Positions 39,299-41,991 of a DNA stretch of 42,926 nt are shown here, one piece after another. Position numbers and translations under genes: made by a program. The DNA is taken from contig JABSSQ010000149.1 of assembly GCA_013213905.1 (NCBI GenBank), positions 1-42,926 on the forward strand. Reading direction: 5' to 3'. Under the pieces are notes generated by a model, which saw only the letters and a program-made list of their open reading frames with translations, was not told the origin of the DNA and did no database searches. The first letter of the stretch is position 1. Each line of letters begins with the position of its first letter. This DNA comes from Verrucomicrobiales bacterium. Its GTDB lineage: Bacteria; Verrucomicrobiota; Verrucomicrobiia; Verrucomicrobiales; DEV007.

Positions 39299-39670
<372 letters not shown>

Positions 39671-39696: not shown

Positions 39697-39712
39697 AGCA
39701 TCAAGCGTGCCA
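39697..39712 (-). promoter_or_regulatory. Sigma-54 (-24/-12) promoter of the PII gene
   Basis: Minus strand TTGGCACG-CTTG-ATGCT: GG-N10-GC spacing, one mismatch from the consensus core; 45 bp before the PII start codon. Confidence 0.75.
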
Positions 39713-39780
39713 ACTCTTAAAATTCCTCCCGCAACCCACGTTCTATAAAGGAAGTTAAGTTTCTTCGGATTTCCCGAACT

Positions 39781-39815
39781 TGGTAATTTCAAATTCTGTG
39801 GTAAATAATTTACCA
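39781..39815. promoter_or_regulatory. Palindromic operator / enhancer-site pair in the PII-activator intergenic region
   Basis: Perfect palindrome TGGTAAAT-A-ATTTACCA (39799-39815) preceded by imperfect TGGTAATTT-C-AAATTctgt (39781-39799). Confidence 0.55.
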
Positions 39816-39841
39816 TCTCCTGCTAAAGAACTGACCAGTTT

Positions 39842-41272
39842 ATGACCAGTGGCCCTGCTTTACTCGTGATCGATCCGGACCCCGGCGTTGCCAGCGCGAT
39901 TGGCCGCGCCCTCAAAGAGTCTGATATCAGGATCACTTCGGTCGCCAGCGGAGACGAAGCGATCGAGGAACTGGATTCCGGTGAATTCGACATCGTCATC
40001 TGTGACCTCGCTTTTGAGGAGGGGCGTGGGTTTGCTCTCTTGAAGAAGGTTCAAAAAGCAACGCCGCAACCTCCCTTCATTGCTCTTAGCGAGCTCGCCG
40101 ACAGTCGGTCCGCGATCGAAGCGGTCAAAGCCGGAGCTTTCGATTTTATTCCCAAGCCAATTTCAGCTCCCGATCTCAACCGGGCCATCGATGAGGCGAT
40201 TGATTGTTCGCGACGCGCCAGCGAGCCGGTCGCGATCGATCCTCGCAACGAATTCAGCGACGGAGTCGATACGCTCGTAGGCAACAGCCGCGCGATGCTC
40301 GATGTCTATAAGGCACTGGGACGCCTTTCGGCGACACCGGTTACCGTGCTCATTCGCGGCGAAACCGGAACCGGTAAAGAACTTGTCGCCCGCGCGGTTT
40401 ACCAACACGGTCACCGCGCCCACAAACCGTTCATCACCATCAATTGCGCAGCGATCCCTGAGAACCTTCTCGAGTCGGAACTCTTTGGTCACGAGAAAGG
40501 TGCCTTCACCGGAGCAGTCGCCACTCGAATCGGAAAGTTTGAACAGGCCAACGGGGCAACCCTGTTCCTCGACGAGATCGGCGATCTGAATCACTCGCTC
40601 CAGGCCAAGCTGCTTCGCGTGCTGCAGGAAAAGCGATTTCAACGCGTTGGCGGCTCCGAAGAAATCCAGGTCGATGTCCGCATCATTGCGGCAACTCACC
40701 GGCCTCTCGAGAAAATGATTTCCGAAGGCGATTTCCGGGAAGATCTTTTTTACCGGCTCAACGTCGCCACGATCAAACTGCCACCGCTGCGTGACCGGAC
40801 CGGGGATATCCAGTTGCTCACCGGATTCTTTCTCAAACGATTCAGCGAGGAACTCGGCCTGCCGCCAACTGCCATGACACGAAGCGCGGTGTCACGACTA
40901 GAATCTTCCCGCCTTCCGGGCAATGTACGTCAGCTTCAGAACATCGTTCGCAAGGCACTGTTGCGATCAAGAGGTTATGCCATTGACCGGGATACCATCG
41001 ATGATCTGCTCGTTGAAACGGAACCTCCGGAACAGAAGTCAGCAGAAACCGGTTCGGTGGAACAATACTGTCGCCAACTCGTGGCGGACGCAGCTAACGG
41101 AATGCTGGAGAACGTTCACCAGATCGCTGTCGAACGCGTCGAAGCCAACCTCATCGAAAGTGCCCTCGAAAAGAGTGAGGGAAACATCAGCAAGGCCTCC
41201 AAGTGGCTCGGACTGTCGCGCCTCACCTTTCGGGAGAAAGCAAAGCGCTACGGAATTGTCGATGACCGCTAA
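39842..41272 (+). CDS. NtrC-family sigma-54-dependent response regulator
   Basis: Receiver domain (VICDLAF, FIPKPIS), AAA+ with [14 protein letters not shown] and FLDEIGDL, Fis-type C-terminal HTH ([25 protein letters not shown]). Confidence 0.95.
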
Positions 41273-41991
41273 GCCGTCGGCATCGCCAGCCAGGCCGTCG
41301 TGGTTCCATCGGCGTAGCGAAGGCCCAGGCGAATGTTCATCTGCCCGGCCAGAACCGCAGCCGTCGTCAACCCAAGGCCATAGTGCTCAGCACCCTTAGT
41401 CGTATGGAACGGGACAAAGGACTCTTTCAAACTGTCCTCGGTCATCTCGACGCTGGTGTTGCGGATGAAAAGATCCACCGTACCACCCGGACTGGCTTCG
41501 CCGGGAGGAAAAACATCAATCGCGACGGAACTGTTCGGTGTTCCGGCTGCAGCCTGGGCAGCGTTCTTAATGAGCTGAGTAAAAACCTCGCCAAGCTTTC
41601 CCGAATCACCGGCAATTCCCGGAAGGCCTTCCCGGAAATTTACCTGCAGGCTGACGCCCGCTTCATTACATGCCTCCTCGGCTTTTGACGTCCAGTAGGC
41701 GGAAACCGCATCGAGTGATACCGAATCCGAATCGCAGCGGCTGCACCCGGACGAGGTCAGGACGACCCGGTTCAGATCAGAAGCCGTCTTCGCGGCGTCC
41801 TGCATCTGCTGAGCACTTTCGCGGACTTCGCCGCTGATACCGTCATCATAGAGGATCAGGCTGGAGAACCCCTGGATTACCCCCATGAGGTTGTTGTGCT
41901 TGTGGACCAGGCCTTTCAAAAACTCCTCGTAGAAGTGCCGCGTGGGCCCCTCTTCGAGCCGATAGTCGTCTGCAAATATGAAGTCGGCCAT
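41269..41991 (-). CDS. Soluble histidine kinase-like protein with divergent G1 box
   Basis: H-box-like LVHKHNNLMGVIQGFSS, N-box VFTQLIKNAAQA, G2-like HYGLGLTTAAVLAGQM; canonical DxGxG not found. Confidence 0.75.
   Translation of the reverse strand: MADFIFADDYRLEEGPTRHFYEEFLKGLVHKHNNLMGVIQGFSSLILYDDGISGEVRESAQQMQDAAKTASDLNRVVLTSSGCSRCDSDSVSLDAVSAYWTSKAEEACNEAGVSLQVNFREGLPGIAGDSGKLGEVFTQLIKNAAQAAAGTPNSSVAIDVFPPGEASPGGTVDLFIRNTSVEMTEDSLKESFVPFHTTKGAEHYGLGLTTAAVLAGQMNIRLGLRYADGTTTAWLAMPTA

Follow-up and report, generated by a model that had tools for sequence, protein, structure and literature searches.

The genes for the PII nitrogen regulatory protein (glnB) and for an NtrC-like activator are transcribed divergently in this Verrucomicrobiales bacterium, and the gap between them contains a perfect palindrome. 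Does this palindrome have a function, and if so, which protein would use it, and for which genes? The features of the locus are listed in Table 1 with their positions in the window, which is the whole stretch of DNA that was analysed (42,926 nucleotides).

Table 1. Genes, promoter elements, and predicted binding sites at the glnB/activator locus (window coordinates).
Feature	Position	Strand	Remarks
Primary enhancer site (predicted), TGGTAAATAATTTACCA	39799..39815	.	Perfect palindrome, consensus TGGTAA-N5-TTACCA, kept in 29/29 orthologous regions
Second, weaker enhancer site (predicted), TGCTAAAGAACTGACCA	39821..39837	.	2 mismatches, offset +22 bp from the primary site
Sigma-54 (-24/-12) promoter of glnB, TGGCACGCTTGATGCT	39697..39712	-	10/11 fixed consensus positions; column conservation 0.84
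glnB, PII nitrogen regulatory protein, 117 aa, presumed target	39299..39652	-	Pfam P-II 116.6 bits
NtrC-like response regulator (activator), presumed binder of the sites	39842..41272	+	Receiver, sigma-54 AAA+ with GAFTGA, HTH_8
Small histidine-kinase-like gene, candidate partner kinase	41269..41991	-	HATPase_c 34.2 bits; tail to tail with the activator gene
Sigma-70-like match TTGGTA-18-AATAAT, possible activator promoter	39780..39809	+	9/12; weak

The 17-bp perfect palindrome of the original prediction is borne out, with an 8+1+8 architecture. So are the two distances given for it, about 95 bp to the -24 element of glnB and 26 bp to the start codon of the activator gene. The centre of the palindrome lies 95 bp upstream from the T of the -24 element, and its end lies 26 bp before the activator ATG, with the centre at 35 bp from it. 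The palindrome by itself is weak evidence. A perfect 17-bp palindrome appears by chance in 0.3% of shuffles of the PII/activator intergenic region, and there are five in the whole 42.9-kb window, so this one is only moderately unusual.

The palindrome is real, but its partner site had been misplaced. The imperfect copy proposed earlier, TGGTAATTTCAAATT (39781–39797), differs from the consensus at 5 of 12 positions and is confined to the window and its closest relative. Its column conservation in the orthologous gaps is 0.45, the same as background (0.46), and for this lack of conservation it is rejected as the second site. The real partner, TGCTAAAGAACTGACCA, had been missed; it lies on the other (downstream) side and ends 4 bp before the activator ATG. 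A second copy, usually degenerate, is present at the same +22-bp offset in most of the orthologous gaps, and also at the operons of small YRG proteins described below.

A search with the activator protein in 57 genomes gave 29 regions in which the PII/activator synteny is kept, including that of the window; these are not independent samples, since several of the genomes are closely related. TGGTAA-N5-TTACCA is found with at most 2 mismatches in all 29 gaps (none in 20, one in 7, and two in 2). Among shuffled regions, 0.57% reach 2 mismatches, and none has fewer. Averaged over columns, conservation reaches 0.86 for the palindrome and 0.84 for the sigma-54 element; other columns average 0.46, and the gap sequence outside the sites has diverged among orthologues. 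The distance from the site centre to the -24 element of glnB is 82–85 bp in most orthologues. Another family (G038) has the site as well, and a slightly degenerate copy is present upstream of glnB in another genus (G078). The palindrome survives in every gap where the synteny is retained, and it is this conservation, not the palindromy, that indicates function rather than chance. The role first proposed for it, an enhancer for PII, is well supported as a prediction by this retention.

The activator has the full bEBP domain set (PF00158, Sigma54_activat, 246 bits; PF00072, 78.3 bits; PF02954, 44.8 bits) and GAFTGA in its translation, and is a sigma-54 enhancer-binding protein of the NtrC family in the wide sense. 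Against the NtrC equivalog TIGR01818 it scores 463.6 bits, under the curated cut-off of 558.6. Sigma-54 promoters were recognised by the GG and GC dinucleotides 10 bp apart in TGGCAC-N5-TTGCW. With scores of 9–11 of 11, they are present in each of the 29 glnB regions and in the 21 of 23 YRG operons that have the site. The kinase-like gene adjoins the activator gene in most orthologous loci. It is short (240 aa), and Pfam finds the histidine-kinase ATPase domain alone; classical NtrB has a PAS domain, whereas none is detected here by Pfam.

The genome was searched for the motif, as had been suggested to define a regulon, and one further copy with the tandem arrangement was found. It is located before the sigma-54 promoter of a gene for a 65-aa protein with three YRG repeats (C357, L145:4092-4289). 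A non-coding RNA downstream of this promoter was considered and rejected; nothing in Rfam matches, and the sequence there codes for the YRG protein. A count in 34 congeneric genomes gives 37 exact copies of the motif, versus 6 of the reversed control. The 37 occurrences comprise 22 at PII genes, 6 before a sigma-54 promoter and a small ORF (YRG operons), and 9 elsewhere, mostly in coding sequence. Those in ATP synthase c-subunit genes (G001, G012, and G028; identified from surrounding ORFs) and in other coding sequence are taken as coding coincidences. The predicted regulon includes PII, as originally proposed, and is wider than was seen then, extending to the small YRG-protein operons.

A profile of the YRG family, in which the DNA site is not used, was searched in the 34 congeneric and 289 order-level genomes. 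In 21 of a total of 23 YRG operons, the palindrome lies upstream of a sigma-54 promoter; the profile had been seeded by six of these 21 via the site and by one via the activator locus. Among the operons found without the site or the activator locus, the palindrome is present in 14 of 16, at 97–118 bp upstream of the sigma-54 promoter. The two operons without the site (L188 and L189) encode divergent proteins with weak profile scores. The site centre is 116–119 bp from the -24 element in nearly all congeneric YRG operons (107 bp in one), and 97, 108, and 118 bp in those of other genera and families. The weaker copy is usual here too, 22 bp nearer the promoter. The enhancer occurs in both orientations, with the weak site promoter-distal at glnB and promoter-proximal at YRG genes. 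Classes of enhancer-to-promoter distance can be recognised near 62, 71, 84, 96, 107, and 118 bp, with steps of about one helical turn. This helical phasing is suggestive only: p is 0.008 for the six classes and rises to 0.056 if two outlying loci (G016 and G018) are included as a further class.

The YRG proteins (L145:4092-4289, L165–L189, L250, L252, and L258) are 59–74 aa long in most copies and are often encoded in tandem pairs. None of six copies tested matches NCBIfam. In Pfam, the copy of this genome matches DUF4278 only, with a score of 20.4, below the gathering cut-off of 25.3. The copies of G038 (32.1) and G194 (26.8) are above the cut-off, and the others score 18–24. Across the phylum, no more than 3 of 388 genomes pass the DUF4278 model. 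At best, the YRG proteins appear to be distant relatives of DUF4278 (PF14105). AlphaFold predicts paired beta-strands (hairpins) at low confidence (pLDDT 63, pTM 0.25). A PII T-loop is among six weak PDB matches to the YRG repeats. The idea that the repeats mimic this loop has no real support, as 73 of 1590 ORFs fit the repeat profile as well as the PII of the window does.

Judging from the sequence evidence, the segment 39799–39837 is likely a tandem enhancer for the adjacent NtrC-like activator, which would control PII and the YRG proteins and probably also its own gene. Because the same enhancer lies before both, PII and the YRG proteins can be considered as one regulon. The mechanism would be modelled on NtrC, phosphorylated dimers of which, on two sites, form an AAA+ ring and, by looping of the DNA, reach the sigma-54 holoenzyme to open the promoter. 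By analogy, we infer binding, phosphorylation, and the direction of regulation as follows. Activator dimers would bind the strong site and the weak one 22 bp away. The activator would be phosphorylated, probably by the neighbouring small kinase and possibly under PII control; this role of the kinase is suggested by its conserved adjacency. The phosphorylated activator would oligomerise on the two sites and loop to sigma-54 RNA polymerase at 39697–39712, so that the glnB promoter opens. Bound near its own start codon, it would probably restrict its own transcription. Elsewhere in the genome, the same enhancer, centred 97–119 bp before the sigma-54 promoter, would drive YRG (DUF4278-like) proteins. 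The signal would be nitrogen status, since PII is a target.

Is the neighbouring activator the protein that uses the site? In G038, which belongs to a second family, glnB and the sigma-54 promoter are separated by a YRG gene of the same orientation. In G226, of a third family, a YRG gene adjoins the activator orthologue (56% over 410 aa), and the YRG site is changed to TGGTCA-N5-TGACCA; no such site is found at glnB of G226. Three congeneric genomes are without an activator orthologue (G001, G017, and G020), and they have no site at any PII gene: two have no PII match, and both PII genes of G020 are without the site. G001 and G017 are reported to be >90% complete, and their shared lack of a PII match and an activator orthologue could be due to gene loss or an assembly gap. 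The recognition helix of the activator HTH, SRLTxREK, is conserved along with the site. Based on the G038 operon, the G226 adjacency, the joint loss, and the conserved helix, the site can be assigned to the adjacent activator with good, though incomplete, confidence.

The sequence could instead be an enhancer for another enhancer-binding protein of the genome. At least 14 proteins of this genome match the activator, so another one could use the site, and the identity of the regulator rests on adjacency and co-occurrence. This reading is unlikely, given that the site and the activator orthologue are lost together, that in G226 the orthologue adjoins its target gene while the site covaries, and that the recognition helix is conserved. 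Separately, one genome (G015) has a second PII/activator-like pair on C14 (L154), whose activator is 55% identical to that of the window and which has its own TGGTAAATCTTTTACCA site and sigma-54 promoter. This second pair indicates that the PII/activator module is duplicated in G015.

The palindrome was also proposed to be an autoregulatory operator, and this is plausible by position, although the promoter evidence for it is weak. The gap contains one sigma-70-like match, seen in the window only, with its -10 (AATAAT) within the palindrome (9 of 12; mean 0.2 in shuffles). Its -35-like TTGGTA overlaps TGGTAATTTCAAATT, and this match is possibly the real nature of what had been taken for an imperfect copy. 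The match is weakly compatible with self-repression. The bound activator probably limits its own transcription, since the sites are within about 40 bp of its start codon. It can be asked whether the palindrome is an operator of the activator gene only, its distance to the glnB promoter being incidental. Its closeness to the ATG and the -10 inside it would agree with such a role. It is quite improbable, however, that this is the only role, because the tandem site is also found 97–119 bp before YRG sigma-54 promoters with no activator gene next door, and because its distance to the glnB -24 element is kept in most orthologues.

An operator of a BlaI-type repressor is a far less likely reading. 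It is brought up by C490 of the same genome (C490:286-302, L146), where the exact TGGTAA-N5-TTACCA and a near-copy stand on either side of a sigma-70-like promoter, and a BlaI-family (PF03965) gene and a BlaR1-like gene follow directly. No sigma-54 promoter scoring 9 or more is listed within 400 bp of the C490 site, whereas the glnB and YRG sites lie 62–143 bp upstream of the -24 element, which is the position of an activator and does not overlap the promoter. The C490 site is probably a look-alike repressor operator. A chance palindrome without function, which the five palindromes of the window might suggest, is refuted by the conservation in the 29 gaps against the shuffles and has a negligible probability.

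The tandem enhancer of the adjacent activator can be compared with that of classical NtrC. E. coli NtrC (NRI) has a tandem enhancer upstream of glnA, and its site is TGCACC-N5-GGTGCA. Both proteins have the receiver-AAA+-Fis-type HTH architecture, both enhancers are paired palindromes about 100 bp upstream of a sigma-54 promoter, and both are near the promoters of nitrogen-control genes. Unlike E. coli NtrC, this activator is divergent from glnB and scores under the NtrC equivalog cut-off, and the small kinase gene is tail to tail with it, whereas ntrB is upstream in E. coli. The site, TGGTAA-N5-TTACCA, differs too, and the specificity unlike that of E. coli NtrC in the original prediction is well supported.

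The classical targets are also different. Glutamine-synthetase promoters in five genomes have no TGGTAA-N5-TTACCA, including one class with a strong sigma-54 promoter. At a glutamine-synthetase-domain gene (L219, L221, L222, and L223; C121 of this genome and relatives), a strong sigma-54 promoter is conserved, with GTTGACAA immediately before it. There is no TGGTAA enhancer within 200 bp of it, and it is presumably served by another activator. Ammonium-transporter promoters are without the site in three of five genomes. The ammonium-transporter gene (L228 on C525 of this genome, L227, L230, and L231) has a sigma-54 promoter, TGGCACGCGGGGTGCT. Degenerate candidates are present in this genome and G014 only: GGGCAATCCTCTTACCA, which has 2 mismatches and precedes the -24 element by 121 bp, and one with 3 mismatches at 128 bp in G014. 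Control of both glnA and amtB through its own enhancer, a trait of the NtrC equivalog, is not seen. The activator is not a classical NtrC, because it is under the cut-off, its site differs from that of E. coli, and the glutamine-synthetase promoters are without the site.

These facts support a new variant of NtrC-type sigma-54 control, with a regulon of PII and undescribed small proteins. An NtrC-like activator of the Verrucomicrobiales can thereby be given a binding-site consensus and a small regulon, and the site a likely cognate regulator. A full-text search of the literature, for the motif as well as for PII/sigma-54 regulons in Verrucomicrobia, gave nothing relevant. The link to small proteins is the part that a specialist would find surprising. 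The YRG family, not described before, is tied to PII in three ways: by a common enhancer, by a glnB operon in one family, and by adjacency to the activator in another. With these three links, a DUF4278-like function becomes directly testable outside cyanobacteria.

The N-terminal part of the cyanobacterial glutamine-synthetase inactivating factor IF17 corresponds to DUF4278, the domain with which glutamine riboswitches of cyanobacteria are mainly associated (PMC6316151). The cyanobacterial DUF4278 (PF14105) proteins and the YRG proteins are alike in being small, containing YRG, and belonging to nitrogen-control circuits, with weak to moderate profile matches. Unlike the former, most YRG copies have three YRG repeats in 59–74 aa and are mostly below the Pfam cut-off. 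PirA of Synechocystis is a PII-interacting small protein of 51 aa repressed by NtcA (PMC8092223); like the YRG proteins it is small and in the PII/nitrogen circuit, a functional analogy only. It can be tentatively speculated that the YRG proteins are effectors dedicated to the PII/nitrogen circuit of non-photosynthetic bacteria, that a dedicated NtrC-like activator co-expresses them with PII, and that they act on PII or glutamine synthetase much like small proteins of cyanobacteria. The control would be different: sigma-54/NtrC-like for the YRG proteins, and NtcA with the glutamine riboswitch for the cyanobacterial DUF4278 proteins.
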